A stretch of 64,000 nucleotides of DNA from Lota lota. Lineage: Eukaryota > Chordata > Actinopteri > Gadiformes > Lotidae. The translations under genes and the position numbers were made by a program. The notes under the pieces are model-generated. The model saw only the letters and a list, made by a program, of their open reading frames with translations. It ran no database searches and was not told the DNA's origin. Positions 31,396 to 64,000 of this stretch are shown here, one piece after another; position 1 is the stretch's first letter, and every line of letters starts with the position of its first letter. The DNA lies in NCBI GenBank assembly GCA_026745465.1, contig JACYXH010000833.1:32460-96459 (forward strand). Reading direction: 5' to 3'.

Positions 31396-31402
31396 ATTAA
31401 GG

Positions 31403-36189: not shown

Positions 36190-36655
36190 TGTGTGAGCCG
36201 GGCCAGAGGTTGACCTGGCATGGGGTTCTTACTACATGAAAGTGTGGCCGGGCTTCAACCTAGCATAGAATAAACGGTGTGAGCGTGGCCATGGTTTGAC
36301 TTGGCATGGGATACTTAATGTGTGAGTGTGGCCAGCTGTCGACCTGGCATAGGGTACTTCATGTGAGCGTGGCCAGCTTTCAACCTGGCATAGGTACTTC
36401 ATGTGAGTGTGGCCAGTGTTTGACCTGGCATAGGTACTTCATGTGAGCGTGGCCAGTGTTTGACCTGGCATAGGGTACTTCATGTGAGTGTGGCCAGCTT
36501 TCAACCTGGCATAGGTACTTCATGTGAGCGTGGCCAGCTTTCAACCTGGCATAGGGTTCTTCATGTGAGCATGGCCAGTGTTGTACCTGGCATGGGGTAT
36601 TACATGTAAGGATGGCCAGGGATCGACCTGACATAGCATACTATGTGTGAGCGTC
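36190..36655. repeat. ~42 bp tandem array, ~10 copies (inside foldback element)
   Basis: Units of 'gtgagcgtggccagctttcaacctggcataggtacttcat'. The mirrored array forms the last bases of the window (about 63730-64000). Confidence 0.95.
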
Positions 36656-39079
36656 TTGACATGGGATGTGGGCTGACCCCTGAAGATTTTAACAGGTTGG
36701 TTTAATGTGGTGGTGTATTTTATCGCTACATTTTTATCTTTAGAATTTTCAGCTACAGTACGACGCTACTCCATTTAAAACATCCTTGAGTATCTTTTGG
36801 GACGACGTTTCTGGATGACTTAAGTCTGTGGCCCAAATCAACGATTTGCCTTTGCAATCCAGTATACATCAAGAGCCTGGAGCGATCCAGCATCTGGCTT
36901 TCTATTCCACCTCCTACACACTGGATAGGATGACTTGAGTGTCATGCAGATTGGATTGCAGTGTGACTGAATTATGCAAACAATGGAAAGGAACAATGGA
37001 TACTAGGAACAATGGATGACGGACTAATGGCATTCCGAATGGACAGAATGGACAGGAAACCAACTGAGAAGATGAAAATGTACCAGAACATTTTTGTAAA
37101 TGGTTATTCAAGCTTGACAGTCTGCGACGTGGCTGCCCTTCCTACCCCCGACATGATCGATGGCTGCCATGACCTGTGGATCTTCTGTACTCCTGTGCTG
37201 AGACGCAAGTCTTTCGCTGGCTGAATTGTAATGTATTGGACGAGGCTAGCTGGACCTGGGAGATGGGTCCCCTTGAATCAGAAACCATCTTGGAAACATC
37301 CCAACTAGGGTCCTCTTCAAGCTGCAGGTGTGTTGTTCTTCAGATGTGGACGTAAAGAAACCCTAACTGGGGCTTCAAGATCTATGAAGAGGAACATTGA
37401 AATGTGCTCAATGGTTCTCTACTGTAAGAGTTAGGTTGTATTCTAGTCGCTAAGTGTTCGAGCCCTCACATCCTACCCTTGGCATTTCTCCTTGGGCAGT
37501 CCCTGTCACGGTCCTGACGGATGTTCCTGTTCATGTAACTGACGACAGCCTTATGAACACTTGGTTATTTCTGAGGGGGACATCTACAGAACTGTAGACT
37601 TAAGATAGCACAGTGTCCTAGCATGCATCTCGGGCCACTCAGACCACACCCAGATCAATAAGGCAACACTCATGCAATTTGAATGCAATGTTTTTGAGAG
37701 TAGCAAGGAAGTGGACCAAAAGCATCAGATCAGTTAGTTTTTTTGTACGCTGGTGAACCTTGTTTATTGGTAGTAGTTAATTAGTTAGATGGGGGAACTG
37801 TGTAGTCAAAATTATTTGTACATATACCAACAGCATCAAACTACTAGATCGCCTCAAGGTAAGTCTGTTGGCTGTATTTTGAAATGCGAAGATGATCAAA
37901 AGACCACAAGATCTTCATCGTCGTTCAGCTCAAGGTGAGGTGCTGGTTATGTATTGCTGGTTTGTACTGGAACGTTAGGATTCCAGTATGACTGACCTCT
38001 AATGCTGCAGTACTGTATGAGTTGTGGATGTTGATTCACCTGGTAGGGCATCTGGCAGTATGTTCAGGATTGACATTTGCGTAACCTCATCACTAACAAG
38101 CGTACCTAATTAGGTCATCTGGCGGTTCCCTATTTCTATCAGTAACCATCTGCAATATTTGATCACTTTATTGTGCTTTAGGTAGTGCACTCATAATGAA
38201 ACATAACATTTTTATAAAATCCCGCAAAACTACTTTGATGATTGCTCTCTACAACTGACACTGTGTTGTTGCGTAAACATTTTGGAGTCGCGTATATGAT
38301 GCAGAGATCGTTTAAGGCTGCAACATTTTAATTACAATTTGGCATTTCCATAGTGCGGCTCCTTTGATCTACAACAAGCCAGCAGCTGAATATGGCTAAG
38401 TATCATTTTACTTTTATATTACTATTGATACTGCTAGTGTTTTAAATATCTGGGCTGTGATTGGCCCAGTTAAACCCTCACCCTAACCCTACAGAGCTGA
38501 AATTGTAACTGTAGTTTGTGTCACAAGGTGTCTGCCTCCACACCCAGCTCCATCCCTCGCTGCCGTCTCCCCACTGGGCTAAAAAGGACTCCATAACGGT
38601 GAGGTCAATGCACTTTCAGTTTCAGTGCTTGGGCTGAATAAATTCTGTCTTCTCTGTGTTGTCTCTACTAGACTTCAGAAATAAAAGGAAGGGTTCAATG
38701 TAAACGTGCTTATTTGTGTAAAAACTAATGGAATAGCTGTTCAGAAGAGTCAAATAAGTTTAATTGTTGCCAAATGCTATCATAAAAGTGCGGCTGTAGA
38801 TGAAATCCCACATAACATAAGCAAACTAAGAACAGTTGTTCCTCTTAAGCACCCTGACTATTGTATTGGTTTTCAGTTTATTCTTGGTGAGGCCATGATG
38901 TAAAGCTCATTGAAGAGTAGTGACACATTCAGACATACTACATCTTTTGTGTACACTCATTGACTTGGAAAGGATTTATAAATTGCTGCATCACTTCCTG
39001 TGTTTGGTAATTGTTGTTCCCATGTGATTCCAGCGTGTGATGTCTAGTTATTAAATGGATGATTGTTTTGTGTTAACAG

Positions 39080-39147
39080 TGGGGGCAGCTCCAGTCCTTG
39101 CTATCCTGAACCTGTATGACGCACAAGATGTCAATCCAACCACGCAG
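39080..39147 (+). other. possible exon of an unrecognised gene
   Basis: A 68 bp segment bounded by 'ttgtgttaacag' and GTGAGC. It is open as GAAPVLAILNLYDAQDVNPT... and ends in phase 0. The mirrored copy is at about 61150-61220. I do not recognise the protein. Confidence 0.3.
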
Positions 39148-39649
39148 GTGAGCGTTTGATATGGACGGTTTCACATTGATACCTACCGTATTTACCCATT
39201 CTTTTCTGTAACGTTATATGACCTTCTCAAAGTGATCTATGCAGAGTGGTCGGGAGGTAGATGTGGTCGAGGAAGCGTTGAACCAGGCTCACTAGTGTTA
39301 GTGGCATTCCATAGTGTAATTGAACTTGCTGTTGTGATATTCATAGAATATATTTGTTACCGTGTGTTGACATCACTGTTAATGATTATGGAGTTACAAT
39401 GATTTATATTGGATGTGAATATGCTTGATTATGATTGGTTCAGTTCCTTGACTCGGTGTGTGGCAGTTTGCCTTCCTGAAGACGGCCAACCTGTATGTCT
39501 CTAGTTAATAAATAAAGCTAATAAGTTATAGCACAGCTAATATGTTATAGCACGTCGTCTTCTGAGATTTAATTACATGTACATATTGTACAAAACAAGA
39601 CCGCTGTGTAAACGTGTTTACAAAGATGCTGTCTGACTTTACAGGATCC

Positions 39650-39840
39650 CCTGGACCAGGGTGGACCGGAGGGTAACCAGATCCCCTGGACCAGGCATGG
39701 GGCACCAGGGTGGACCAGAGGGTAACCAGATCCCCTGGACCAGGCATGGGGCACCAGGGTGGACCAGAGGGTAACCAGATCCCCTGGACCAGGCATGAGG
39801 CACCAGGGTGGACCAGAGGCTGAGGACCAGAGGGTAACCA
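39650..39840. repeat. 48 bp tandem array, ~4 copies
   Basis: 'ggtaaccagatcccctggaccaggcatggggcaccagggtggaccagag' recurs at 39673, 39721 and 39769. It is mirrored at about 60450-60650. Confidence 0.95.
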
Positions 39841-40857
39841 TCACCAAGCTGTTCTGAAACGCTAAATGCCCAGAGGTTCTTTTTAGTTTTTGTAAACGAT
39901 TGTAGAGGGAGATTTATTAGTTTTTAGTTTGTGAATTTTCACTGTGAATTCTTCCTAAGCTGTGATTTGAGGTAATATTTTGGGTCATCTAAGTCACGTG
40001 AGCTATTTTTGCTCCTATTGCTGCTACTACTACTACCATAGTTACACATTTCTCAGTTAATTTCACAGTTATACATTTCTCAATAAGTCAACTTGGAAAC
40101 TTAAGGAAGTTGGATATTCGCTACCCCTTTGCAAATGTTTCCATCCCCAGGTTTGTTAGCAGATGTTAGACCCAACTAGCGCTGTTTGATAGCAGACCGG
40201 GACGCCGTGGCGGAGGGGAGCTGATGGTGGAGCCGTGCTGGAGGTCCTGCCTGACGAAGGACGTCCCGGTCGGGGCGAATGAAGCCCAGCTCTAAAGTGA
40301 TTATCACACTCACTGCTACTGAAGTGTTTTTGTTCTTAAATCTGTTACTTATGGTGGCTGATTTAGAGAAAACAGTCCCTGGGTGAATACGTTTTATCTA
40401 GACTCTCTAACCCCTAAATGTGAAGGCTACAGAGTCTGTGCTACTGCTGCACAAGTTCTACAAGTTGTATGGTTTATTTGAACAAATGATAGTGAGTCTG
40501 TCGGCTGAGGTGGGAGACGGTTTTTATTTGTATACTGATTTAAAGTGGATTGTGAATAGATGAAGCTGATGACCAGGAACAACACGAGGCCTACGATGTG
40601 ACTGCTTAAGTCTTTGGAAGGTTAATACCAACCTCAACCTTTTTTCTACGTCATTTGACAACCTGTTGAATTCCCACAATGTTTGACTGTTTTCCTGAAT
40701 AACAAGAGTGTGCATGTTTCTTAGTGCAAGTTTAAAATATCAAATGAATCTTCCATTCCTCTTTTACACTCCAGCCAGCACTTTGGTTTAAACAGGGCGT
40801 CCAAAGAATAAACCCACCCACCCATGGCTCAACTACTACCACTGTGTTTGTTACCAG

Positions 40858-40940
40858 ACCAGGAATCCTTGGCTGAGGAGAGCTGATGGAGGAGCCATCT
40901 GGGGCCAGACCATGAATCTACCTGCCAACAAGTATTACTG
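40858..40940 (+). other. possible exon of an unrecognised gene; related segments at ~40190 and ~41515
   Basis: An 83 bp segment between an acceptor-like 'gtttgttaccag' and the donor GTAAGT. In phase 0 it reads TRNPWLRRADGGAIWGQTMN and onward to KYY. Two similar segments containing 'gagctgatgg...gagcc' occur about 670 bp upstream and downstream, so this looks like a triplicated exon with degenerate neighbours. It joins in frame to the segment at 39080. The mirrored copy in the right arm (about 59361-59443) carries a one-base deletion. No family was recognised. Confidence 0.3.
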
Positions 40941-41024
40941 GTAAGTTTGCTGAACTGTATTGTTTACTGTCAGACATGACCGTAAACGACCAACGTTACC
41001 ACACCATTCAAACCACTGCTGTGT

Positions 41025-41472
41025 GTTACCTGACCATCACACTACCACTGATACCGCACAAACCACTGCTGTGTGTTACCTGACCATCACACTACCACTG
41101 ATACCAGACCATCACACTACCACTGATACCAGACCATCACACTACCACTGATACCAGACCATCACACTACCACTGATACCAGACCATCACACTACCACTG
41201 ATACCAGACCATCACACTACCACTGATACCAGACCATCACACTACCACCGATACCACACCATCACACTACCACCGATACCAGACCATCACATTACCACCG
41301 ATACCAGACCATCACACTACCACTGATACCAGACCATCACACTACCACTGATACCAGACCATCACACTACCACTGATACCAGACCATCACACTACCACTG
41401 ATACCAGACCATCACACTACCACTGATACCAGACCATCACACTACCACTGATACCAGACCATCACACTACCT
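41025..41472. repeat. 25 bp tandem array, ~17 copies
   Basis: Units of 'accactgataccagaccatcacact' at very regular 25 bp spacing. The mirrored array (about 58800-59300) is much more irregular. Confidence 0.95.
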
Positions 41473-42469
41473 CCCCGGTTGTGAGCGGACATTGAGTCCC
41501 AACTAGCACTGTTTGTTACCACCAGGAAGGCGTGGCAGAGGGAAGCTGATGGCAGAGCCGTGCTCGAGGACCTGCCTGGTGAAGGACGTCCTTGTGGGGC
41601 GAGTGACACCCGACTCTAAAGGGAAAACCACTGAGGAGAGAGAGCTGAATGTGGTACTGGTGGTCCTCGTACAGGGCAGGATGGGGTGTTGGGCTCTCTA
41701 TCACATGGTACTGGGTTCCACCCCCAAGTTCTCAGACTACATGTAATGCATCTGAATTCACTAGGTCTCTTTGGATACGAGTGTCTGCTGAAGAACTGAA
41801 TGTTGGATCCTTTTGAATAATGAGAAAAATGTGTCATCCATCTTTGTAAGGCGCGGTTGAAATACTGTGTTGAGTCTGGGGCAGACACACCACAGCTGTA
41901 TCACACCTGTATCTCTGAACAGCTCAAGTCCTGCAGGTCAATAGTCCACTGCTAAGATAACATGGATATTGTGTTCATTATTGATTACCTGACACTGCTT
42001 AGACAAATACAGTCTTAAAGTGAACAATTTGCAACATTTCAGTGACCAACAAACAGCGCTTCATCAGAGCTGAGGTCATCGCTGGACTGGATTCATGGCC
42101 TACACACTCACACAACTTGACTTTGTCACCATATGTTGTGTTCCATCAAGGTTTCCTTCCCACAGTGGGAGGCTCCTTGTCCTTCAAGGAGTTAGGGTTC
42201 AGTGTTAGGGAAAGAGTTAGGGTGAGATGGTTGAATACATGGGCTGCTTTCACAATATACCGCTCTAATTGGTTTCAAAATTGGACTGGACAATGGACAA
42301 GGCTTCCCCAAAATGTTTCAATGTGTGCAAAAATGTTCAAATGTATACTAATGGAGTTTTCTAATAGAAACTTCTCCTACCTTGTTGTGTTGCTTTTTCA
42401 GCATGTTGTGAGGTAAGTTAAATGTCCATAATGAGTTGACTAATACACGTATATATTAGCATTATACAA

Positions 42470-43275
42470 TATTCTCTAACCTTAACCTCTACCCTAAACT
42501 TAACCTCTACTTTACCTTAACCTCCCCCTCCCCTCTACCTTAACCCCTACCCCTCTACCTTAACCCCCCTTCTCTCTACCTTAACCTCCCCCCTCCCCCT
42601 CCCCTCTACCTTAACCTCCCCCCTCCCCCTCCCCTCTACCTTAACCTCCCCCCTCCCCCCTACCTTAACCTCCCCTCTACCTTAACCCCCCCACCCCTCT
42701 ACCTTAACCCCCCCTTTTATCTGCCTTAACCTCCCCCTACCCTAACCTCCCCCTCCCATCTACCCTTACCTTATCCTCCCCCTACCCTAACCTCCCCCTC
42801 CCATCTACTCTAACCGTAACCTCTACCTTAATCTTTACCTCCCCTCCACCCTCTCCCCCCACCCTCATCTTAAACTCCCCTCTCTCCCCTACACCTCTAC
42901 CTTAACCTCCCCCCTCCCATATACCCTAACCATAACCACCTCTACCTTAATCTTAACCTCCCCACTACCCTCACCTCCCCTCTTCCTCCTACCCTCAGCT
43001 TAACTTCCCCTCTCCCCCCTACCCCCCTCTACCTTAACCTCCCCCTACCCTAACCTCCCCCCTCTCATCTACCCTAACCGTAACCTCTACCTTAATCCTA
43101 ACCTCTCCTCTCCCCCCACCCTCACCTTAAACCCCCCTCTCCACCCTCTCCCTCTACCTTAACCTCCCATCTACCATAACTACCTCTACCTTAATCTTAA
43201 CCTCCCCACTACCCTCACCTCCCCTCTACCTTAACCCCCCCTTCTCTCTGCCTTAACCTCCCCCTCCCCCTAGGG
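42470..43275. repeat. C-rich telomere-like degenerate array (CCCTAACC / CCTTAACC)
   Basis: About 800 bp in which CCTTAACC, CCCTAACC and TACCTTAACC alternate with CCCCTCCCCCTC runs. The strand is nearly G-free. It lies directly upstream of the Penelope-like element. The mirrored copy is at 57100-57815. Confidence 0.9.
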
Positions 43276-43449
43276 TTTTTTTTGACCCACTTTTATGACT
43301 GGTGACCATTTTATAACTTGTTTAACCAAGACAGAGCTGTTTTTCTACCAGTTTTATCTTCTTTTATTTCCTTCCTTTGATGCTTTTTTTCTCCATGGTT
43401 TTAATGGTAAGCTCTTACCTGGGGTTTTTATGGGGAAAAAGTAGGACAT

Positions 43450-43668
43450 GTGGCCTCTTTTAATGCAAACAGCTCCAGTGCTTTCCAGCAACCACTCCCT
43501 GTCGGTCGGGGACCTCAGCAAACAGGCCTCGCTCCTTTTGAGGATCCCCACCCCCTTGGGGACACTAACATTGGATTTGAACAACAAAAAAGCCACATCT
43601 CCAGCCACCAAAGGACAAGAACAAACAACAAAAGGTCTCTCCTCACCATACCACCGCAAACCTGGGGT
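43450..43668 (+). other. possible 5' coding segment of the Penelope-like element (left copy)
   Basis: An open segment from ATG 43450 reads MASFNANSSSAFQQPLPVGR and onward to a Gln/Asn/Lys-rich stretch ending near TIPPQTWG, where a GTAAGC donor-like site follows. It is conserved in the right copy (about 56936-56718). It could be a first exon of ORF1, because retained introns are known in Penelope-like elements, but no splice partner can be demonstrated. Confidence 0.3.
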
Positions 43669-44090
43669 AAGCTCATTTTTTACCCCACCACCACCTTGAC
43701 CCCTGCCCCCAGCATTGTGCTCTTTTACTCATACCTTCATTTTACAGAGCTGCTGCTTTGACTTATTTGATGGTTTTATGCTTTATGGTATTCTTTGTCT
43801 TGGTATTTTACATTGGTTTTGGTCACCATGTTTAACCATGGTTCCAGGTTTGGGCCCTTGTCTCACCCAGACGGAGACATGTACACACACACACACACGC
43901 ACACATGCACCCACGCACACGTACACACATGCACACAACACATGCACGCACACAGAGACACCCAGCTCCCAACATTCAAAGCCCACCGCCACTCACACAC
44001 ATCACTAAAACATACTTCAAGATAATACAAGCAGTACACCACCAAAATATCATTTCACACACCATCACCACCAACACACCACCAGCAGGG

Positions 44091-46087
44091 ATGCTCAGAC
44101 AGGTGGGTAAGCTAGCCGAGTTCATCAAACCTGCATGCCCTAACCCAACTACAGCCAACAGGGTCAAGCAGAACACGGACAACTGGCTGAAGCAGAAGCT
44201 GGTCATTTTAAATGAACATTACCAAACTGTTTTAACCACCCTCCTTCCCACAGGCCTTCCTTTTGAGGAGGTGGGCCCGCACCCGGTATAAACACCGGTT
44301 CTGGCCCACCACCCTCCCTCAGACATACAAACATCTTACCACTGCCGTCCCTGATCTCTCCTCACCACCTCCTAGACCCCCTAACCCTCTCACCACCCTC
44401 CATCCCCCCCTCCCCAGGCCCCGCACTCGCCCTCCTCCTCCTCCATCCTCCTGCCAGATTCCCCCTCTCCTACGCTCCCACCACCCTGCCCACTCCCCCC
44501 TCCCCCTGCCCCCCCTACCCAACCCCACTCCCCTCCTCCCCCTACTCCCCAGCCCCACTCCCCCTACCCACCCCAGCCCTATACCCCCCCACCCTACCAT
44601 CTCCCACACTCGCCCCACACTCCCCAGCTACCGTATGAGGAGCCCACCACCCGGATTGGCCCCCAGAGCACCCAGGGAGAGGAGTCGTCTTGTTAACACA
44701 CTGACGATCCCCCCCACGGCCAGACCTACACCACTGGCCAATTATGGCTCCGGGAGGGCAACTCCCGGGGGGGAACAGACACGAGCTCTATCTCCTCCTC
44801 CCCCAACCCCGGTCACAACCCCTCCCCCCCCTTTCCTCCCCCCCTTCCCCTGCTCAACCAAAGGCGTGGGTTAGGGCCTTGCCGACTGGGGGCCTGGATG
44901 CCGATAGTATACTATCTGTGGAGGATTTTCACCCCTCATCCCCACTACTCCCAATAAGGCCCCTGGTAATAATACCCCCCAGGTACCCTCCTCCACCCCG
45001 GCGCCTGGGCCCCCGGCTGGCAGAATAGTCCACGTAGAGGCCCAGGTCCTCAATACGGTCACCCACTCACTCCGTAGTCCACTGTCGTCCCAGCGCTCGC
45101 CCACCACGAGCCCAGAGACAGCACCACCGGCACCTACATACACCCACCTGAAAGTACATCAACTCAGCCACATAGTCTCTTCAGTTTCCTCCTCAATAGA
45201 AGCTATAGACACAGACACCAGTCCACCCCAAACTCACTCTGTTTCCCGTCCTGCAGGCTCATCCAAGCAGCGGGCCCCACCACAGACCCGGACTGGTGTA
45301 GGTACAGCGGAGAGACCCAAGCAGGTGGCTAAGGTGATGATGGGTCAAAGCAAAGGGAAATGTCCCACACAGCAATCCCAATCTGAAGCCACCTCTAACA
45401 ACAGGTCTCCTCCACTGGCCAGCCAGTCCGTTAGCACACCTTCACAACACATTATACAGCAGAGACTCCACCACGCTCTTAATTCGGCCACTTTAAGTCC
45501 CCGCACCCTCACTCCCGAGCGCAGACGGCCGAGTGTAACCACCGACCCCAAGCCTCGACCGAATAAGACGACATTCAACATCAACAGACACGATCCTACG
45601 AGGTATAAAGTCAGGGATTGGACTATTGATTCCATCAAACCCGTAGTGATCATCGGTGACTCAAACCTGAGTCGGATCCCTCCCACACACACATAGACGT
45701 CCAAATCGACAGTTATCCCGGTGCCAACTGCTTCCATATTGCACAGATCCTCCAAAAAAGCCCCATTAACCTGGACACTAAGATTGTGGTGCTCTCTCTG
45801 GGCATCAACAACATGGGGCAGGGGCGAGAGACGGCAGTGGGCCAGCTTCAGGCACTTCACTGTAGAGCCACAGAAACATACCCGCGGGCCACAATCTATG
45901 TCCCCATCATCAATTATTCACATCACACCAGGATACACTCAAACACTTTAATGCATACATCACTTTAAAATACAACACATTATTTGAAATTCACCACCAC
46001 TCATTTCACACCCAGACCGACAATATACACTGGACACCACAAACTGCAACAGACACATTAGACAACTGGTTAGCACAGTTAAAATAG
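44091..46087 (+). pseudogene. Penelope-like element ORF1, left copy: N-terminal region, Pro-rich region, SGNH-hydrolase-like domain
   Basis: Reading from ATG 44091 (MLRQVGKLAEFIKPACPNP) there is a compact region ending near LPFEEVG, a frame change near 44275, then about 200 residues that are extremely Pro-rich (44330-45000). A basic stretch leads into an SGNH-hydrolase-like fold. Block I GDS is at 45655-45663 (IIGDSNLSRIP), the Asn block GINN at 45801-45812, and the catalytic-pair block D-N-I-H-W at 46019-46033, ending at TAG 46085-46087. Those blocks lie in three different frames here: a one-base deletion at about 45690 is private to this copy, and a second shift at about 45920-45960 is shared with the right copy. 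Enzymatic activity is inferred from motifs; SGNH domains act as esterases in other families. The true start may lie upstream. Non-functional as it stands. Confidence 0.65.
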
Positions 46088-49000
46088 ATAAGGGGGCTAA
46101 GTCCCAGCAGGGACACCCCCTTCACCAAGATTCAAACATCCTCAACCTATCCACCCTGTTCCACCTCCCCCACACCGAAGCTCAGCTGCTGGAGAGGGGC
46201 CTTAGTTTTATTCCCACCCCCCAGGTCTCTGAGAAACAAAAGTTTCTCAGAGACATTTACAAATACAACCGGTCCCTCAAACTTATTGAATTTTTCCACC
46301 ACTGTCCCGGTGGACCCATTCCACCTTTTCAGGGGCCGTCTGGCTGGGAACCACCGGCGGGCGCCTTGTCGGAAAACCTCACCACACTCCTCCATAACAA
46401 TAAACACATAGCCATACATAACCACTCAACCAACACCTTAGATACACCCAACATTACTAAACAAGAACATACAGCACTGAGACACCTGGGTAAATACAAA
46501 CACATAGCCCTACATAACCACTCAACCAACACCTTAGATACACCCAACATTACTAAACAAGAACATACAGCACTGAGACACCTGGGTAAATACAAACACA
46601 TAGCCCTACATAACCACTCAACCAACACCTTAGATACACCCAACATTACTAAACAAGAACATACAGCACTGAGACACCTGGGTAAATACAAACACATAGC
46701 CCTACATAACCACTCAACCAACACCTTAGATACACCCAACATTACTAAACAAGAACATACAGCACTGAGACACCTGGGTAAATACAAACACATAGCCCTA
46801 CATAACCACTCAACCAACACCTTAGATACACCCAACATTACTAAACAAGAACATACAGCACTGAGACACCTGGGTAAATACAAACACATAGCCCTACATA
46901 ACCACTCAACCAACACCTTAGATACACCCAACATTACTAAACAAGAACATACAGCACTGAGACACCTGGGTAAATACAAACACATAGCCCTACATAACCA
47001 CTCAACCAACACCTTAGATACACCCAACATTACTAAACAAGAACATACAGCACTGAGACACCTGGGTAAATACAAACACATAGCCCTACATAACCACTCA
47101 ACCAACACCTTAGATACACCCAACATTACTAAACAAGAACATACAGCACTGAGACACCTGGGTAAATACAAACACATAGTTATTAAACCCGCCGACAAAG
47201 GCTCCAAAATAGTCATCTTAGATACACAACAATATCTCTTAGAAGCACACACACAGTTAGCCAACACATCACATTACAGACCCATACAGGAATCGCTCCA
47301 ATTGGCTACACAACAGCAAATTCACAGCATATTTACTGATCTACATAGACTTAAATACATTTCACATAGACAGAAAATCTACTTAGACGGCCCAGACACA
47401 CCACGTGAACGCCTGTTCTACCTCCTGCCCAAAACCCACAAGGCGCCCGAGTCCTGGACGGTCCCTTTCTTGGTGCCGCCGGGACGTCCCATCATCTCCC
47501 ACTGTGGTAGAGTCCTCCCCAGCAGCTGAGTTCATCAAACACTACCTCAGTCCCCTCTCCCGCAGACACCCCAGTTCCATCAAGGACACATATCATTTCA
47601 TCCAGACAATAAACAGGACACGGGTTTCCACACATGCCTTTTTATTCACCATTGATATAGATTCACTGTACACCAACATGGACATAGATTCTGGCCTGCG
47701 TCACCCAGATCCCGACAGGCCCGACAGTCACCTGTTAGAATTACTCACCATCAGCCTGCGCAGGAATGACTTTGTCTTTAATGACAAGCATTAGCTCCAG
47801 ACGCACGGCACAGCAATGGGCAAAAAGTTTGCACCCAGCTATGCCAACATCTACATGGCGGACTTTGAGCATACTGCTCTAAAGAAATGCCCATTGCTGC
47901 CACAGGTGTACTGTCGCTTCCTGGACGACATCTTCAGGGTCTGGCCACATAGTTTAGATCACTTCCTGCAATTCATACACATACTGAATACACACCATCC
48001 CACAATTAAGGTTAAGTACACACAACACGCACAACACATAGACTTTCTGGACACAACCGTATTCTTCCCACACATAAATGCACCACACACAGTCCTTTAC
48101 ACAAAAGTATATTTCAAACCCACGGACACACACGCACTCCTACACAAAACTAGTTTCCACCCCAAGCACACATTGGCGGGTATAATTAAATCCCAAATCA
48201 TACGGTTTCACAGACTCTGCACAGAGGAGACGGACATGCACGGGGCCATCAGGACCCTCTTCCGGGTCCTGAGGGCCAGGGGGTACACAAGGCGCTTTCT
48301 GTGGTCCATCAAGTCCAGCACACTGGCAGAACTGGTGCCTCACGCCTCCATAGGGGACCCCACACCACCGGGGTCTCACGACTCTGCTAGTGGGGGCCAA
48401 TCACCCGCCGCCTCCCCCCACCCTAATCCTAACCCCCCGCCCTCCCGTGCGCCTCATCCCAACCACTCACCACCCACTACGTCTCACCATAACCATCTTT
48501 CATCCACAGCGGTACATTCTAGCCAGCTCTCGGTCACCACGTCTCACCACAACCGTACGTCACCTACTGCGTCTCCATTAACCCACCTGGGGCCTCTGCT
48601 AGGGACCCCCTCCATCTCCCTAACCCTAACCATAACCACCTTCCCTCCTCTACGCCTCACCTTAACCGGCCCCCCTCCCACACTGGGGGGGCGGACACAG
48701 CGTCCGTCCCCCACCACGGGCCGGTGGAGGCGGGGCTTCCACTAGGAGGGCCTGGTTCCCTGAGTCAGGTTATCTTCCCCAACAGGTTTCCTGAGGGGAC
48801 CCCTGACATCAGGAGAGGAGTTGATCGGGGACCCCAGTCACACACACAAATCATACCACTCATCAGCACATTCACACAAAACATCTTACACATACACTCC
48901 AAACTGAAACACGCTTTCACTCGCGCACAACACAACAATCACACACTCCAAAACCACAAAATAATATCGGCCTACCGTAAGAACCCTATCCTGCAGGATA

Positions 49001-49414
49001 TCCTTCTCCACGGAAATCAGAAGCGCCCCCTCTCCACACCAAGGCCACTTTAGGCAGCTGGCGGTCATCCTGAACCGGCACGCCTCCACCTCCAGCCCTA
49101 TCCCGCAAAACATCACCATACACAATAAAAACATAATATATGCCATCACCTGCTCAGATTGCCATAATATATACATTGGAGAAACCAAACCCACCATATT
49201 AGTTAGACTCAAACAACATTTCTACACAATACACATAGGCACACTCAACACTCACCTCGTACAACACTTCCAACAACATCCGGTCACCTCACTACTCATC
49301 ACTGGGCTGGAGATGAAGACGTGCTGGTCGGACAGACAGAGGAAGGCAGCGGAACACAGATGGATCAAAAGATTAAAAACACTTACCCCCTTGGGCCTTA
49401 ACATGAGGGAGTAG
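46088..49414 (+). pseudogene. Penelope-like element ORF2, left copy: reverse transcriptase + GIY-YIG endonuclease
   Basis: Domain order: a PLE N-terminal region (ILNLSTLF...LERGLSFIPTP, 46130-46300); an 8 x 96 bp in-frame repeat (46402-47169); the conserved block KPADKG (47185-47202); an RT palm with DIDSLYTN (47654 on), GTAMGKKFAPSYANIYM and FLDDIF (47918-47935); a Pro/His/Ser-rich linker of about 150 residues (48340-48830); a thumb-like segment; and a GIY-YIG nuclease (IIYAITCSDC, NIYIGETK, VRLKQH, AAEHRW, GLN; about 49130-49414). Lesions: a frameshift after GRPIISHCG (about 47515, shared with the right copy), a private stop TAG at 47792-47794, a private one-base deletion near 48585, and a shared frame change before the nuclease (about 49050). 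The RT with GIY-YIG identifies the Penelope-like class, which moves by target-primed reverse transcription. Confidence 0.85.
46402..47169 (+). repeat. 8 x 96 bp in-frame tandem repeat inside PLE ORF2 (left)
   Basis: Eight essentially identical 96 bp units encode the 32-residue unit KHIALHNHSTNTLDTP..., which ends ...HLGKY. The only visible amino-acid variant is I for L in the first unit. The array runs straight into KHIVIKPADKG, so the repeated unit includes the sequence that normally precedes the first RT block. Confidence 0.97.
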
Positions 49415-50076: not shown

Positions 50077-50319
50077 GTTTGTGTGTGTGTGTGTGTGTGT
50101 CGTGTGTGTGTGTGTGTGTGTGCTGTGTATGTGTGTGTGTGTGTGTTGTATAGTGTGTGTGTGTGTGTTTGTGTAAAGTGTGTGTGTGTGTGTGTGTTGT
50201 GTGTGTGTGTGTGGGGGTTTATATTGTATATGTATTCATATGTATGTATGTATGTGTATATATGTGTGTGTATGTGTATATATATACATATATATGTATA
50301 TGCACACACATCCATAATA
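50077..50319. repeat. palindrome spacer: (TG)n/(TA)n microsatellite, 243 bp
   Basis: The only part of the 27.6 kb structure that is not mirrored. It consists of TGTGTG runs with GTGT-AAAG and TGCTGTG interruptions, then ATGTATGTATATATATACATA. The mirrored sequence starts exactly on both sides (…attattatcat / atgataataat…). Confidence 0.95.
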
Positions 50320-53900: not shown

Positions 53901-54305
53901 TTTGTATTTACCCAGGTGTCTCAGTGCTGTATGTTCTTGTTTAGTAATGTTGGGTGTATCTAAGGTGTTGGTTGAGTGGTTATGTAGGGCTATGTGTTTA
54001 TTGTTATGGAGGAGTGTGGTGAGGTTTTCCGACAAGGCGCCCGCCGGTGGTTCCCAGCCAGACGGCCCCTGAAAAGGTGGAATGGGTCCACCGGGACAGT
54101 GGTGGAAAAAATTCAATAAGTTTGAGGGACCGGTTGTATTTGTAAATGTCTCTGAGGTTTCTCAGAGACCTGGGGGGTGGGATAAAACTAAGGCCCCTCT
54201 CCAGCAGCTGAGCTTCGGTGTGGGTGAGGTGGAACAGGGTGGATAGGTTGAGGATGTTTGAATCTTGGTGAAGGGGGTGTCCCTGCTGGGACTTAGCCCC
54301 CTTAT
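50987..54305 (-). pseudogene. Penelope-like element ORF2, right copy: reverse transcriptase + GIY-YIG endonuclease
   Basis: Same domain order as the left copy. Here the RT palm, thumb and Pro-rich linker form one uninterrupted 549-codon frame (52996-51347), because the left copy's TAG is a Tyr codon (NDFVFNDKHYLQTHGTAMG) and the linker has no deletion. The N-terminal part with the 8 x 32-residue repeat and KPADKG is open from 54116 to 52872. The frameshift between the two after GRPIISHCG is shared with the left copy. Private lesions are an extra T in the T-run at about 54108 that shifts the N-terminal region, and a one-base deletion inside the GIY-YIG region near 51120. This copy keeps the longer RT frame but is also inactive as written. 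Confidence 0.85.
53232..53999 (-). repeat. 8 x 96 bp in-frame tandem repeat inside PLE ORF2 (right)
   Basis: Same unit, same copy number and same boundaries as the left array. The first unit here has the majority residue (L) where the left copy has I. Confidence 0.97.
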
Positions 54306-56296
54306 CTATTTTAACTGTGCTAACCAGTTGTCTAATGTGTCTGTTGCAGTTTGTGGTGTCCAGTGTATATTGTCGGTCTGGGTGTGAAATGAGTGGTGGT
54401 GAATTTCAAATAATGTGTTGTATTTTAAAGTGATGTATGCATTAAAGTGTTTGAGTGTATCCTGGTGTGATGTGAATAATTGATGATGGGGACATAGATT
54501 GTGGCCCGCGGGTATGTTTCTGTGGCTCTACAGTGAAGTGCCTGAAGCTGGCCCACTGCCGTCTCTCGCCCCTGCCCCATGTTGTTGATGACCAGAGAGA
54601 GCACCACAATCTTAGTGTCCAGGTTAATGGGGCTTTGTTGGAGGATCTGTGCAATATGGAAGCAGTTGGCACCGGGATAACTGTCCATTTGGAAGTCTAT
54701 GTGTGTGTGGGGAGGGATCCGACTCAGGTTTGAGTCACCGATGATCACTACGGGTTTGATGGAATCAATAGTCCAATCCCTGACTTATACCTCGTAGGAT
54801 CGTGTCTGTTGATGTTGAATGTCGTCTTATTCGGTCGAGGCTTGGGGTCGGTGGTTACACTCGGCGTCTGCGCTCGGGAGTGAGGGTGCGGGGACTTAAA
54901 GTGGCCGAATTAAGAGCGTGGTGGAGTCTCTGCTGTATAATGTGTTGTGAAGGTGTGCTAACGGACTGGCTGGCCAGTGGAGGAGACCTGTTGTTAGAGG
55001 TGGCTTCAGATTGGGATTGCTGTGTGGGACATTTCCCTTTGCTTTGACCCATCATCACCTTAGACCTGCTTGGGTCTCTCCGCTGTACCTACACCAGTCC
55101 GGGTCTGTGGTGGGGCCCGCTGCTTGGATGAGCCTGCAGGACGGGAAACAGAGTGAGTTTGGGGTGGACTGGTGTCTGTGTCTATAGCTTCTATTGAGGA
55201 GGAAACTGAAGAGACTATGTGGCTGAGTTGATGTACTTTCAGGTGGGTGTATGTAGGTGCCGGTGGTGCTGTCTCTGGGCTCGTGGTGGGCGAGCGCAGA
55301 CCACGACAGTGGACTACGGAGTGAGTGGGTGACCGTATTGAGGACCTGGGCCTCTACGTGGACTATTCTGCCAGCCGGGGGCCCAGGCGCCGGGGTGGAG
55401 GAGGGTACCTGGGGGGTATTATTACCAGGGGCCTTATTGGGAGTAGTGGGGATGAGGGGTGAAAATCCTCCACAGATAGTATACTATCGGCATCCAGGCC
55501 CCCAGTCGGCAAGGCCCTAACCCACGCCTTTGGTTGAGCAGGGGAAGGGGGGGAGGAAAGGGGGGGAGGGGTTGTGACCGGGGTTGGGGGAGGAGATAGA
55601 GCTCGTGTCTGTTCCCCCCCCGGGAGTTGCCCTCCCGGAGCCATAATTGGCCAGTGGTGTAGGTCTGGCCGTGGGGGGGATCGTCAGTGTGTTAACAAGA
55701 CGACTCCTCTCCCTGGGTGCTCTGGGGGCCAATCCGGGTGGTGGGCTCCTCATACGGTAGCTGGGGAGTGTGGGACGAGTGTGGGAGATGGTAGGGTGGG
55801 GGGGTATAGGGCTGGGGTGGGTAGGGGGAGTGGGCCTGGGGAGTAGGGGGAGGAGGGGAGTGGGGTTGGGTAGGGGGGGCAGGGGGAGGGGGAGTGGGCA
55901 GGGTGGTGGGAGCGTAGGAGAGGGGGAATCTGGCAGGAGGATGGAGGAGGAGGAGGGCGAGTGCGGGGCCTGGGGAGGGGGGGATGGAGGGTGGTGAGAG
56001 GGTTAGGGGGTCTAGGAGGTGGTGAGGAGAGATCAGGGACGGCAGTGGTAAGATGTTTGTATGTCTGAGGGAGGGTGGTGGGCCAGAACCGGTGTTTATA
56101 CCGGGTGCGGGCCCACCTCCTCAAAAGGAAGGCCTGTGGGAAGGAGGGTGGTTAAAACAGTTTGGTAATGTTCATTTAAAATGACCAGCTTCTGCTTCAG
56201 CCAGTTGTCCGTGTTCTGCTTGACCCTGTTGGCTGTAGTTGGGTTAGGGCATGCAGGTTTGATGAACTCGGCTAGCTTACCCACCTGTCTGAGCAT
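54306..56296 (-). pseudogene. Penelope-like element ORF1, right copy: N-terminal region, Pro-rich region, SGNH-hydrolase-like domain
   Basis: Mirrors the left ORF1 from MLRQVGKLAEF (ATG at 56296) to the stop at 54306-54308. The GDS block and the Asn block are in one frame here (54748-54425; MIIGDSNLSRIPPHTHIDF and VVLSLVINN), so the left copy's deletion at about 45690 is absent. The Gly of the left copy's GINN is Val here. The shift before the D-N-I-H-W block is shared. The Pro-rich part also carries copy-specific indels. Function is inferred as for the left copy. Confidence 0.65.
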
Positions 56297-56717
56297 CCCT
56301 GCTGGTGGTGTGTTGGTGGTGATGGCGTGTGAAATGATATTTTGGTGGTGTACTGCTTGTATTATCTTGAAGTATGTTTTAGTGATGTGTGTGAGTGGCG
56401 GTGGGCTTTGAATGTTGGGAGCTGGGTGTCTCTGTGTGCGTGCATGTGTTGTGTGCATGTGTGTGTGTGTGTACGTGTGCGGCATGTGTGCGTGTGTGTG
56501 TGTACATGTCTCCGTCTGGGTGAGACAAGGGCCCAAACCTGGAACCATGGTTAAACATGGTGACCAAAACCAATGTAAAATACCAAGACAAAGAATACCA
56601 TAAAGCATAAAACCATAAAATAAGTCAAAGCAGCAGCTCTGTAAAATGAAGGTATGAGTAAAAGAGCACAATGCTGGGGGCAGGGGTCAAGGTGGTGGTG
56701 GGGTAAAAAATGAGCTT

Positions 56718-56936
56718 ACCCCAGGTTTGCGGTGGTATGGTGAGGAGAGACCTTTTGTTGTTTGTTCTTGTCCTTTGGTGGCTGGAGATGTGGCTTTTTT
56801 GTTGTTCAAATCCAATGTTAGTGTCCCCAAGGGGGTGGGGATCCTCAAAAGGAGCGAGGCCTGTTTGCTGAGGTCCCCGACCGACAGGGAGTGGTTGCTG
56901 GAAAGCACTGGAGCTGTTTGCATTAAAAGAGGCCAC
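56718..56936 (-). other. possible 5' coding segment of the Penelope-like element (right copy)
   Basis: Mirror of 43450-43668, with identical predicted residues over the MASFNANSSS...TIPPQTWG segment and the same GTAAGC following it. Confidence 0.3.
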
Positions 56937-57099
56937 ATGTCCTACTTTTTCCCCATAAAAACCCCAGGTAAGAGCTTACCATTAAAACCATGGAGAAAAA
57001 AAGCATCAAAGGAAGGAAATAAAAGAAGATAAAACTGGTAGAAAAACAGCTCTGTCTTGGTTAAACAAGTTATAAAATGGTCACCAGTCATAAAAGTGG

Positions 57100-57815
57100 G
57101 TCAAAAAAAACCCTAGGGGGAGGGGGAGGTTAAGGCAGAGAGAAGGGGGGTTAAGGTAGAGGGGAGGTGAGGGTAGTGGGGAGGTTAAGATTAAGGTAGA
57201 GGTAGTTATGGTAGATGGGAGGTTAAGGTAGAGGGAGAGGGTGGAGAGGGGGGTTTAAGGTGAGGGTGGGGGGAGAGGAGAGGTTAGGATTAAGGTAGAG
57301 GTTACGGTTAGGGTAGATGAGAGGGGGGAGGTTAGGGTAGGGGGAGGTTAAGGTAGAGGGGGGTAGGGGGGAGAGGGGAAGTTAAGCTGAGGGTAGGAGG
57401 AAGAGGGGAGGTGAGGGTAGTGGGGAGGTTACGATTAAGGTAGAGGTGGTTATGGTTAGGGTATATGGGAGGGGGGAGGTTAAGGTAGAGGGTAGGGGAG
57501 AGAGGGGAGTTTAAGATGAGGGTGGGGGGAGAGGGTGGAGGGGAGGTAAAGATTAAGGTAGAGGTTACGGTTAGAGTAGATGGGAGGGGGAGGTTAGGGT
57601 AGGGGGAGGATAAGGTAAGGGTAGAGGTAGGGGGAGGTTAGGGTAGGGGGAGGTTAAGGTAGTTAAGGTAGATTAAGGTAGAAGGTTAAGGTAATAGGTT
57701 AAGGTAATATTAAGGTAGAAAAAGGTTAAGGTAGAGAGAATTAGGTAGAAGGGTATTAAGGTAGAGGGGAATAAGGTATAGTAGTAAGGTTAAGTTTAGT
57801 AGAGGTTAAGGTTAG
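57100..57815. repeat. G-rich telomere-like degenerate array (GGTTAAGG / GGTTAGGG), mirror copy
   Basis: Complement of the 42.47-43.28 kb array. The distal 150 bp (57660-57800) is shorter and irregular ('ggttaaggtagttaaggtagatt'). Confidence 0.9.
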
Positions 57816-58799
57816 AGAATATTGTATAATGCTAATATATACGTGTATTAGTCAACTCATTATGGACATTTAACTTACCTCACAACATGCTGAAAAAAGC
57901 AACACAACAAGGTAGGAGAAGTTTCTATTAGAAAACTCCATTAGTATACATTTGAACATTTTTGCACACATTGAAACATTTTGGGGAAGCCTTGTCCATT
58001 GTCCAGTCCAATTTTGAAACCAATTAGAGCGGTATATTGTGAAAGCAGCCCATGTATTCAACCATCTCACCCTAACTCTTTCCCTAACACTGAACCCTAA
58101 CTCCTTGAAGGACAAGGAGCCTCCCACTGTGGGAAGGAAACCTTGATGGAACACAACATATGGTGACAAAGTCAAGTTGTGTGAGTGTGTAGGCCATGAA
58201 TCCAGTCCAGCGATGACCTCAGCTCTGATGAAGCGCTGTTTGTTGGTCACTGAAATGTTTGCAAATTGTTCACTTTAAGACTGTATTTGTCTAAGCAGTG
58301 TCAGGTAATCAATAATGAACACAATATCCATGTTATCTTAGCATGGACATTGACCTGCAGGACTTGAGCTGTTCAGAGATACAGGTGTGATACAGCTGTG
58401 GTGTGTCTGCCCAGACTCAACACAGTATTTCAACCGCGCCTTACAAAGATGGATGACACATTTTCTCATTATTCAAAGATCCAACATTCAGTTCTTCAGC
58501 AGACACTCGTATCCAAAGAAACCTAGTGAATTCAGATGCATTACATGTAGTCTGAGAACTTGGGGGTGGAACCCAGTACCATGTGATAGAGAGCCCAACA
58601 CCCCATCCTGCCCTGTACGAGGACCACCAGTACCACATTCAGCTCTCTCTCCTCAGTGGTTTTCCTTTAGAGTCGGGTGTCACTCGCCCACAAGGACGTC
58701 CTTCACCAGGCAGGTCCTCCAGCACGGTCTGCCATCAGCTTCCTCTGCCACGCCTTCCTGGTGGTAACAGTGCTAGTTGGGACTCAATGTCCGCTCACA

Positions 58800-59300
58800 A
58801 CAACCGAGGTAGTGTGATGGTCTGGTAACTCAGTGGTAGTGTGATGGTCTGGTAATCAGTGGTAGTGTGATGGTCTGGTATCAGTGGTAGTTGTGATGGT
58901 CTGGTAATCAGTGGTAGTGTGATGGTCTGGTAATCAGTGGTAGTGTGATGGTCTGGTATCAGTGGTAGTGTGATGGTCTGGTATCGTCTGGTAATGTGAT
59001 GGTCTGGTATCGGTGGTAACCAACAGTGATGTTTGTCTGGTATCGGTGGTAGTGTGATCTGGTAACCAACAGTGGTAGTGTGATGGTCTGGTATCAGTGG
59101 TAGTGTGATGGTCTGGTAATCAGTGGTAGTGTGATGGTCTGGTAACAACAGTGGTAGTGTGATGGTCTTTGGTATCAGTGGTAGTGTGATGGTCTGGTAT
59201 CAGTGGTTTGTGATGGTCTGGTAACACACAGCAGTAGTTTGTCTGGTAACAGTGGTAGCTGGTGTTTGGTCTGGTAACACAAGCAGTGGTTTGAATGGTG
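58800..59300. repeat. 25 bp tandem array, mirror copy, irregular
   Basis: Same 'agtgtgatggtctggtatcagtggt' unit as the left arm, but with many 1-5 bp insertions and deletions between units. This contrasts with the clean left array. Confidence 0.9.
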
Positions 59301-60444
59301 TGGTAACGTTGGTCGTTTACGGTCATGTCTGACATGGTAAACAATCAGTTTATGCAAACTTCCAGTAATACTTGTTGGCAGTAGATTCATGGTCTCAGAT
59401 GGCTCCTCCATCAGCTCTCCTCAGCCAAGGATTCCTGGTCTTAACAAACACAGTGGTAGTAGTTGAGCCAATATTTATTCTTTGGACGCCTCGTTTAAAT
59501 CATTCTAGTGCTGGCTGGAGTGTAAAAGAGGAATGGAAGATTCATTTGATATTTTAAACTTGCACTAAGAAACATGCACACTCTTGTTATTCAGGAAAAC
59601 AGTCAAACATTGTGTGAATTCAACAGGTTGTCAAATGACGTAGAAAAAAGGTTGAGGTTGGTATTAACCTTCCAAAGACTTAAGCAGTCACATCGTAGGC
59701 CTCGTGTTGTTCCTGGTCATCAGCTTCATCTATTCACAATCCACTTTAAATCAGTATACAAATAAAAACCGTCTCCCACCTCAGCCGACAGACTCACTAT
59801 CATTTGTTCAAATAAACCATACAACTTGTAGAACTTGTGCAGCAGTAGCACAGACTCTGTAGCCTTCACATTTAGGGGTTAGAGAGTCTAAATAAAACGT
59901 ATTAACCCAGGGACTGTTTTCTCTAAATCAGCCACCATAAGTAACAGATTTAAGAACAAAAACACTTCAGTAGCAGTGAGTGTGATAATCACTTTAGAGC
60001 TGGGCTTCATTCGCCCCGACCGGGACGTCCTTCGTCAGGCAGGACCTCCAGCACGGCTCCACCATCAGCTCCCCTCCGCCACGGCGTCCCGGTCTGCTAT
60101 CAAACAGCGCTAGTTGGGTCTAACATCTGCTAACAAACCTGGGGATGGAAACATTTGCAAAGGGGTAGCGAATATCCAACTTCCTTAAGTTTCCAAGTTG
60201 ACTTATTGAGAAATGTATAACTGTGAAATTAACTGAGAAATGTGTAACTATGGTAGTAGTAGTAGCAGCAATAGGAGCAAAAATAGCTCACGTGACTTAG
60301 ATGACCCAAAATATTACCTCAAATCACAGCTTAGGAAGAATTCACAGTGAAAATTCACAAACTAAAAACTAATAAATCTCCCTCTACAATCGTTTACAAA
60401 AACTAAAAAGAACCTCCGGGCATTTAGCATTTCAGAACAGCTTG

Positions 60445-60655
60445 GTGATGGTTACCCTCTGGTCCTCAGCCTCTGGTCCACCCTGGTGCCTCATGCCTGG
60501 TCCAGGGGGATCTGGTTACCCTCTCTGGTCCACCCTGGTGCCCCATGCCTGGTCCAGGGGATCTGGTTACCCCTCTGGTCCACCCTGGTGCCCCATGCCT
60601 GGTCCAGGGGATCTGGTTACCCTCCGGTCCACCCTGGTCCAGGGGATCCTGTAAA
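60445..60655. repeat. 48 bp tandem array, mirror copy
   Basis: Complement of 39650-39840, with extra bases such as GGGGGATC and CTCTCTGG. Confidence 0.9.
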
Positions 60656-62730
60656 GTCAGACAGCATCTTTGTAAACACGTTTACACAGAGGTCTTGTTT
60701 TGTACAATATGTACATGTAATTAAATCTCAGAAGACGACGTGCTATAACATATTAGCTGTGCTATAACTTATTAGCTTTATTTATTAACTAGAGACATAC
60801 AGGTTGGCCGTCTTCAGGAAGGCAAACTTCCACACACCGAGTCAAGGTACTGAACCAATCACAATCAAGCATATTCACATCCAATAAATCATTGTAACTC
60901 CATAATCATTAACAGTGATGTCAACACACGGTAACAAATATATTCTATGAATATCACAACAGCAAGTTCAATTACACTATGGAATGCCACTAACACTAGT
61001 GAGCCTGGTTCAACGCTTCCTCGACCACATCTACCTCCCGACCACTCTGCATAGATCACTTTGAGAAGGTCATATAACGTTACAGAAAAGAATGGGTAAA
61101 TACGGTAGGTATCAATGTGAAACCGTCCATATCAAACGCTCACCTGCGTGGTTGGATTGACATCTTGTGCGTCATACAGGTTCAGGATAGCAAGGACTGG
61201 AGCTGCCCCCACTGTTAACACAAAACAATCATCCATTTAATAACTAGACATCACACGCTGGAATCACATGGGAACAACAATTACCAAACACAGGAAGTGA
61301 TGCAGCAATTTATAAATCCTTTCCTATAAAAACCTGTCCTGCCTCATTTTCCAAGTCAATGAGTGTACGCAAAAGATGTAGTATGTCTGAATGTGTCACT
61401 ACTCTTCAATGAGCTTTACATCATGGCCTCACCAAGAATAAACTGAAAACCAATACAATAGTCAGGGTGCTTAAGAGGAACAACTGTTCTTAGTTTGCTT
61501 ATGTTATGTGGGATTTCATCTACAGCCGCAGTTTTATGGTAGCATTTGCGCAACAATTAAACTTATTTGACTCTTCTGAACAGCTATTCCATTAGTTTTT
61601 ACACAAATAAGCACGTTTACATTGAACCCTTCCTTTTATTTCTGAAGTCTAGTAGAGACAACACAGAGAAGACAGAATTTATTCAGCCCAAGCACTGAAA
61701 CTGAAAGTGCATTGACCTCACCGTTATGGAGTCCTTTTTAGCCCAGTGGGGAGACGGCAGCGAGGGATGGAGCTGGGTGTGGAGGCAGACACCTTGTGAC
61801 ACAAACTACAGTTACAATTTCAGCTCTGTAGGGTTAGGGTGAGGGTTTAACTGGGCCAATCACAGCCCAGATATTTAAAACACTAGCAGTATCAATAGTA
61901 ATATAATAGTAAAATGATACTTAGCCATATTCAGCTGCTGGCTTGTTGTAGATCAAAGGAGCCGCACTATGGAAATGCCAAATTGTAATTAAAATGTTGC
62001 AGCCTTAAACGATCTCTGCATCATATACGCGACTCGAAAATGTTTACGCAACAACACAGTGTCAGTTGTAGAGAGCAATCATCAAAGTAGTTTTGCGGGA
62101 TTTAATAAAAATGTTATGTTTCATTATGAGTGCACTACCTAAAGCACAATAAAGTGATCAAATATTGCAGATGGTTACTGATAGAAATAGGGAACCGCCA
62201 GATGACCTAATTAGGTACGCTTGTTAGTGATGAGGTTACGCAAATGTCAATCCTGAACATACTGCCAGATGCCCTACCAGGTGAATCAACATCCACAACT
62301 CATACACAGTACTGCAGCATTAGAGGTTCACAAACTGCATATTTCTAACTACTAACCTTGGCAGAAAGCCCAAAACAGTCATACTGGAATCCTAACGTTC
62401 CAGTACAAACCAGCAATACATAACCAGCACCTCACCTTGAGCTGAACGACGATGAAGATCTTGTGGTCCTTTGATCATCTTCGCATTTCAAAATACAGCC
62501 AACAGACTTACCTTGAGGCGATCTAGTAGTTTGATGCTGTTGGTATATGTACAAATAATTTTGACTAAACAGTTCCCCCATCTAACTAATTAACTACTAC
62601 CAATAAACAAGGTTCACCAGCGTACAAAAAAATCTAACTGATCTGATGCTTTTTGTCCACTTCCTTGCTACTCTCAAAAACATTGCATTCAAATTGCATG
62701 AGTGTTGCCTTATTGATCTGGGTGTGGTCT

Positions 62731-64000
62731 GAGTGGCCCGAGATGCATGCTAGGACACTGTGCTATCTTAAGTCTACAGTTCTGTAGATGTTCCCCCTCA
62801 GAAATAACCAAGTGTTCATAAGGCTGTCGTCACATCAGTTACATGAACAGGAACATCCGTCAGGACCGTGACAGGGACTGCCCAAGGAGAAATGCCAAGG
62901 GTAGGATGTGAGGGCTCGAACACTTAGCGACTAGAATACAACCTAACTCTTACAGTAGAGAACCATTGAGCACATTTCAATGTTCCTCTTCATAGATCTT
63001 GAAGCCCCAGTTAGGGTTTCTTTACGTCCACATCTGAAGAACAACACACCTGCAGCTTGAAGAGGACCCTAGTTGGGATGTTTCCAAGATGGTTTCTGAT
63101 TCAAGGGGACCCATCTCCCAGGTCCAGCTAGCCTCGTCCAATACATTACAATTCAGCCAGCGAAAGACTTGCGTCTCAGCACAGGAGTACAGAAGATCCA
63201 CAGGTCATGGCAGCCATCGATCATGTCGGGGGTAGGAAGGGCAGCCACGTCGCAGACTGTCAAGCTTGAATAACCATTTACAAAAATGTTCTGGTACATT
63301 TTCATCTTCTCAGTTGGTTTCCTGTCCATTCTGTCCATTCAGAATGCCATTAGTCCATCATCCATTGTTCCTAGTATCCATTGTTCCTTTCCATTGTTTG
63401 CATAATTCAGTCACACTGCAATCCAATCTGCATGACACTCAAGTCATCCTATCCAGTGTGTAGGAGGTGGAATAGAAAGCCAGATGCTGGATCGCTCCAG
63501 GCTCTTGATGTATACTGGATTGCAAAGGCAAATCGTTGATTTGGGCCACAGACTTAAGTCATCCAGAAACGTCGTCCCAAAAGATACTCAAGGATGTTTT
63601 AAATGGAGTAGCGTCGTACTGTAGCTGAAAATTCTAAAGATAAAAATGTAGCGATAAAACACACCACCACATTAAACCAACCTGTTAAAATATTCAGGGA
63701 TCAGCCCACATCCCATGTCAAGACGCTCACACATAGTATGCTGTCAGGTCGATCCCTGGCCATCCTTACATGTAATACCCCATGCCAGGTACAACACTGG
63801 CCATGCTCACATGAAGAACCCTATGCCAGGTTGAAAGCTGGCCACGCTCACATGAAGTACCTATGCCAGGTCAAACACTGGCCACACTCACATGAAGTAC
63901 CCTATGCCAGGTCAAACACTGGCCACGCTCACATGAAGTACCTATGCCATGTCAAAAGCTGGCCACACTCACATGAAGTACCCTATGCCAGGTTGAAAGC
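62731..64000. mobile_element. foldback element, right-arm copy (one inverted end and part of the interior)
   Basis: Starts with 'gagtggcccgagatgcatgctagg' and mirrors 37640 down to about 36377. The window ends inside the 42 bp array before the second inverted end is reached. Confidence 0.75.

Follow-up and report, generated by a model that had tools for sequence, protein, structure and literature searches.

A giant palindrome at the end of a Lota lota contig is probably a chimeric assembly fold-back in a dispersed repeat

We analysed a 64,000-nucleotide stretch of the Lota lota genome (hereafter the window; assembly GCA_026745465.1, contig JACYXH010000833.1, positions 32,460 to 96,459 of the forward strand), in which two arms of about 13.7 kb form a giant palindrome around a microsatellite rich in TG and TA. 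With a probability that we put at roughly two in three, this palindrome is a chimeric fold-back made during assembly at a contig end rather than a palindrome of the chromosome; the evidence points to misassembly but falls short of proof. Below, C833 denotes the window's contig, while C302, C303, C670 and similar labels denote other contigs of the same assembly, which was searched in 867 contigs (575 Mb); the suffixes L and R mark left and right arms.

Geometry of the palindrome

The mirror symmetry is confirmed in the assembled sequence. Self-BLAST of the window returned four inverted matches, namely 42717-50093 with 50303-57666 (98.9% identity), 38967-43054 with 57205-61324 (93.1%), 37995-38971 with 61348-62327 (99.1%), and 36376-37994 with 62376-64000 (98.5%). 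Together with a base-by-base alignment, these matches bear out the preliminary description of arms of about 13.7 kb around a TG/TA stretch, and the 98.9% identity over 7.4 kb rules out chance as the cause of the similarity. The left, outgoing arm occupies 36376..50093 on the forward strand, and the right, returning arm occupies 50303..64000 on the reverse strand. The span first given to the palindrome, 36377..64000, is right for the mirrored stretch, but neither 36376 nor 64000 is a true arm boundary. The window corresponds to C833:32460-96459 and C833 has 96459 bases, so that the right edge of the window is the end of the contig; the right arm stops at 64000 because C833 ends there, and the outer limit of the arms is not visible because the right arm is cut. 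Likewise, a TG/TA stretch does lie at the centre, and its size is 243 bp by the bounds used earlier and 209 bp (50094..50302) by the arm bounds of self-BLAST.

The alignment outside the tandem repeats, which were masked by hand, comprises 10,606 columns, in which the two arms differ by 49 substitutions (0.46%) and 30 indels. Over the whole alignment there are 159 substitutions, 110 of which fall in the masked arrays (2,958 columns), mostly around 40.8-41.6 and 42.5-42.7 kb, with identity down to 93% there; this array divergence had been missing from the earlier list of arm differences. The two larger indels in that list, of about 28 bp (near 61326) and about 50 bp (near 62328), are found in the alignment as a 28-bp indel at 38966/61325 and a 48-bp indel at 37994/62328.

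The arm belongs to a dispersed repeat family

Genome searches identified the arm as a single copy of a large, dispersed and multi-copy repeat that carries pieces of a Penelope-like retroelement. When 901 bp of the left arm served as the query, all 40 scored matches, the best 40 of 78 candidates, had 96-100% identity, and with a 1.5-kb query from the outer arm, all 40 scored matches, the best 40 of 175 candidates, had 95-100% identity, both C833 arms being included in each case. The repeat-bearing contigs whose size was seen are all under 0.5 Mb. The repeat also reaches left beyond the reported arm, as C302, C303, C670 and C674 match parts of the window between 31 and 36 kb, and C670 additionally carries the region of the window at 18.7-20.5 kb that holds a TRIM gene. 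Since what is mirrored here is a dispersed repeat, the rarity of large palindromes outside sex chromosomes and amplicons, which had been invoked to single out this one, is the wrong yardstick. Literature search listings held nothing on this repeat, no Rfam family matched at the gathering threshold, the tRNA scan found no tRNA genes, and three repeat motifs of particular fishes had no match. As a separate observation, two copies, one on C674 and one on C850, have a common arm deletion from about 46096 to 47518, and the repeat therefore has subfamilies.

Comparison with other copies also showed that the central spacer is the tail of the left repeat copy and no separate element. Of the 13 other copies examined, 10 proved, on a count at the tail itself, to have a TG/TA-rich zone after the same arm end; C674b and C833R have only a short stub of it, and C573R was not covered. 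Within the palindrome, the left copy thus has a TG/TA tail, and the right copy has only its short stub before the turn. In C670, C303 and one of the two fetched C674 copies, the zone leads into a common downstream sequence, which the second C674 copy, with its stub, reaches as well. This usual continuation is missing in C833, as would be expected of a fold-back. There, the sequence reverses at a 20-bp perfect dyad (50282..50301) and runs back into the arm, which it meets about 200 bp upstream; a dyad scan of 36001-64000 found no other perfect dyad of 16 bp or longer.

Turning points lie near contig ends

Tight tail-to-tail turns were found on four contigs, C833, C302, C356 and C573. In each of them the second arm repeats the first in reverse; it reaches the contig end in C833, C356 and C573 and comes within about 0.4 kb of it in C302, which again fits a fold-back. 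In C302 (97,767 bases), the mirrored part extends from about 60.4 to 97.4 kb; the two arms of this contig have a 1.76-kb deletion in common relative to the window, with 143 gap openings between them over 11 kb. The turn of C356 is centred at 91.2 kb of 92,904 bases and that of C573 at 125.4 kb of 128,669 bases, where the 686-bp middle is garbled. All three of these further turns lie in the TG/TA zone or next to it, those of C302 and C356 at points different from that of C833. To relate the turns to contig position, we tabulated 40 tail positions, entered by hand from a genome search with a tail query and excluding the four returning arms. Tails turning back tightly made up 4 of the 14 lying less than 20 kb from a contig end and none of the 26 farther in (Fisher p=0.011); the table holds no copies that were matched by the 901-bp arm query but not by the tail query, and the copies on C58, C788 (17.4 kb), C800 and C860 match the tail query only partially.

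The palindrome of C833 could also stem from a real and fairly recent inverted duplication, in which a fold-back at the TA-rich hairpin of the repeat tail, during replication or break repair, would have produced a reversed copy of 13.7 kb or more, with divergence of about 0.5% since. A fragile site would be in keeping with several turns within one TG/TA zone. Moreover, five tail-to-tail inverted pairs, 13.4-18.2 kb apart, lie inside contigs (C859, C744, C850, C788 and C668), and inverted copies as such therefore exist in this repeat family. However, no tight pair occurs among the 26 tails at 20 kb or more from a contig end, and neither the garbled centre of C573 nor the many gap openings between the C302 arms is what such a duplication would lead one to expect. 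We consider this explanation rather unlikely, and unlikely, too, is the extended version of it, in which the TG/TA tail of a TRIM-associated repeat is a hot spot for fold-back in vivo, where breaks repeatedly yield giant, nearly perfect palindromes (four cases, of which at least three differ in turning point) and drive the spread of a huge and structurally unstable TRIM gene region, the assembly breaking in the second arms on account of their size. The five interior pairs, for their part, are possibly one larger inverted module.

Tandem arrays suggest one copy read twice

The arms contain several tandem arrays whose lengths vary among copies of the repeat. A 49-bp array at 39655..39819 (forward strand) has 3.4 copies in the left arm and 3.3 in the right arm of C833, versus 4.4-9.4 in seven other copies. 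The region of the 25-bp array, which lies at 41027..41471 (forward strand) in the left arm and has its counterpart at 58808..59293 (reverse strand) in the right, spans 662 and 677 bases in the two C833 arms, versus 1643-2753 in four other copies. Since both lengths match, the two arms look like one copy read twice. The quality of the 25-bp array differs between them: in the best-scoring array, indels between units amount to about 10% in the right arm, versus 0% in the left arm and 0-1% across the left arm and the four other copies.

The third array, of 96-bp units, has 8.1 copies at 46402..47179 (forward strand), where it encodes an in-frame 32-aa repeat, and again 8.1 copies at 53222..53999 (reverse strand). 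Across the copies measured, it ranges from absent to 14.1 copies, with units 98-100% alike. Two of the interior inverted pairs mismatch in it, having 14.1 and 13.1 copies in C744 and none and 8.1 in C850; the long arms of these two contigs were compared only at and beside this array. The two array lengths common to the C833 arms would also fit the recent shared origin that a real inverted duplication implies.

In addition, telomere-like motifs (three TTAGGG-type repeats with at most 2 mismatches) were noted at 38475-38492, 48618-48635, 51765-51782 and 61828-61845. They are mirrored between the arms, with four matches versus 0.01 expected. The array at 42476-43266 looks telomere-like by eye.

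Private changes in the returning arms resemble errors

We next compared the changes private to single copies, polarised against the column majority. The ratio of private indels to private substitutions was 28:39 in the four return arms versus 46:253 in ten other copies (Fisher p=6e-6), which indicates error-like changes in the second arms, as a fold-back would predict, though the substitution rate of C833R is not raised. C833R alone gave 10:10 (p=6e-4 versus the ten copies), and its contrast with C833L (6:21) was weaker (p=0.065). The indel excess is carried by C833R and C302R, as C573R and C356R together give only 2 private events. Fifteen of the 20 private events of C833R fall in the segment at 44.3-45.9 kb, within the GC-rich part of the arm. 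Such an error-like indel share in the return arms speaks against a real inverted duplication.

Copy relationships at odds with a fold-back

Several observations weigh against the fold-back. By substitutions, all six segments that include C303 place C833R closer to this copy than to C833L, although the margin is slim in the mid segment (7.08 versus 7.73 per kb); in some segments C833R is also nearer to C302R or C573L than to C833L. Only 2 substitutions are exclusive to C833L and C833R, compared with 3 exclusive to C833L and C670. The 48-bp stretch is present in six of the eight copies with both flanks, including C833R, is absent from C833L and is unresolved in C670, while the 28-bp stretch is present in eight of nine copies, again including C833R, and absent only in C833L. 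As C833L lacks both stretches and C833R lacks the private substitutions of C833L, the left arm has copy- or allele-specific changes that are absent on the right. Thus, the second arm is not what a fold-back of one and the same molecule would produce, namely a sequence identical to the first except for errors. Furthermore, the private substitution rate is lower in C833R than in C833L (1.35 versus 2.83 per kb), and an uncorrected raw read would give a higher one. The array data contain counterexamples as well: the count of 8.1 for the 96-bp array is not unique to the C833 arms, being found also in the C850- copy, and noise in the 49-bp array occurs both in return arms (C833R 4%, C302R 12%) and outside them (C573L 5%, C670 14%). 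Finally, a real palindrome would also stop an assembler inside its second arm, so the position at the contig end is no independent proof.

The substitutions and the clean 28- and 48-bp indels are as expected of two aged copies, in keeping with a real inverted duplication. The arms also invite comparison with the ampliconic palindromes of sex chromosomes, which likewise have long inverted arms, mostly more than 98% alike, around a short spacer; unlike in those, the C833 arms are not mutual closest relatives by substitutions, and the block stops at a contig end. Gene conversion would lead one to expect mutually closest arms: the substitutions place C833R nearer to C303, and the tandem-array lengths point the other way. 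An ampliconic palindrome would also have unique flanks on both sides; in C833, the contig end leaves no sequence beyond the right arm.

A proposed fold-back origin of the palindrome

The clean 28- and 48-bp differences rule out an exact fold-back of a single molecule without later change. We favour a fold-back in which the contig would pass through a real repeat copy (the left arm) into its TG/TA tail and, at the TA-rich dyad 50282-50301, would continue on the opposite strand until the sequence stops (the right arm). The right arm measures 13.7 kb, roughly what one long raw read would span. Most likely, the contig end would have been extended by a chimeric inverted long read, in which template and complement had been joined or a snap-back had formed while the library was prepared or sequenced. 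Because the changes of the left arm are missing on the right, this read, which we suppose to come from the same locus, would have to derive from the other allele, or parts of the right arm may have been polished towards the family sequence by reads of other family members. The preliminary description was correct in stating that the arms differ; its conclusion that a simple fold-back is therefore unlikely is weakened, as the arm is one of many copies that are 95-100% alike, and a fold-back read from another allele, or the reads of other copies, may alter it.

Known false duplications offer a partial parallel. According to passages of a 2022 report in Genome Biology (PMC9516828), false chimeric palindromic duplications occur in long-read assemblies, and false duplications are noted there on unplaced scaffolds of small size and together with errors in the sequence. 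The cases described in these passages resemble the present one in being palindromic with one arm of raw-read length. They differ in having been recognised there by depth gaps in linked reads, whereas the case of C833 rests on the assembled sequence; here, moreover, the arm is a many-copy repeat, the indels are clean, and the turns recur in one microsatellite zone.

The missing left-arm changes could also be explained if two haplotypes, or inverted neighbour copies, had been wrongly joined at TA dyads with the intervening 13-18 kb dropped, so that the right arm would be real but belong to another allele or copy. The right arm indeed lacks the private deletions of the left arm and is more like C303 than the left arm is; the dyad is identical on both strands, so the outgoing and incoming tails have it in common; and interior pairs at a suitable distance (13.4-18.2 kb) exist. 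On the other side, the sequence common at the junction would seem short for an assembler overlap, the junctions of C833, C302 and C356 lie at different points, and two tandem-array lengths match between the C833 arms, while two interior pairs differ in the 96-bp array. In addition, a genome search found RAG1 (in two pieces) and RAG2 close together on C838 at one place each, as befits a jawed vertebrate, so that this locus is not duplicated in the assembly. We regard such a wrong join as quite improbable.

Should the palindrome be an artefact, gene and retroelement counts at the ends of such contigs would be too high, and further false palindromes of this assembly may lie at the same TG/TA zone. 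A real palindrome would instead represent a site where fold-back recurs, with a link to an immune-type (TRIM) gene family of very large size.

Pieces of a probable Penelope-like retroelement in the arm

A reverse transcriptase (RT) followed by a C-terminal GIY-YIG endonuclease (EN) is expected of an EN+ Penelope-like retroelement, and the right arm has an RT-like and a GIY-YIG-like match in that order. The former lies in an open frame of 549 aa at 51347..52996 (reverse strand) and is a weak match to PF00078 (E 3.3e-5), its 24.1 bits being below the Pfam cut-off of 29.6. The latter lies at 51085..51435 (reverse strand), in a frame different from that of the RT, and its match to PF01541 (E 1.4e-5, 25.7 bits) is above the cut-off of 22.6. 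Upstream of both, an open frame of 414 aa at 52872..54116 (reverse strand) contains the 32-aa repeats and then the start of the RT region. No solved structures matched the RT. Unlike in an EN+ Penelope-like element, the frames here are interrupted, and an in-frame tandem repeat of 32 aa precedes the RT. In the left arm, the RT open frame (47816..48745, forward strand) has only 309 aa, being shorter than its right-arm counterpart because it is preceded by an in-frame stop and contains a length difference.

From the repeat frame to the GIY-YIG match, the element covers only about 3 kb of the 13.7-kb arm and thus does not explain the palindrome. The retroelement's own structure was ruled out as the cause, the mirrored block being far larger (about 18.5 kb on C302).

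The TRIM region and other inverted repeats in the window

The TRIM gene of the window lies at 19361-20443 (reverse strand) and shows RING, B-box and coiled-coil matches; together with the repeat content, it would be in keeping with a teleost. With this exon as the query, 113 of 113 scored matches had 85-100% identity, on many contigs, and a first look gave 1,810 candidates; most of the matches contain no internal stop. The TRIM family is very large and unusually expanded, and the repeat unit adjoins its members in places.

Two further sets of inverted copies were observed in the left part of the window. Older inverted copies of a SPRY region, with a SPRY/PRY match at 28268-28750, lie at 14136-19284 and 28126-29698, are 71-90% identical and have no single centre. 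In addition, a 1.1-kb inverted pair (1196-2285 and 31395-32480) has 94.9% identity, with matches also on C302, C670 and C674.

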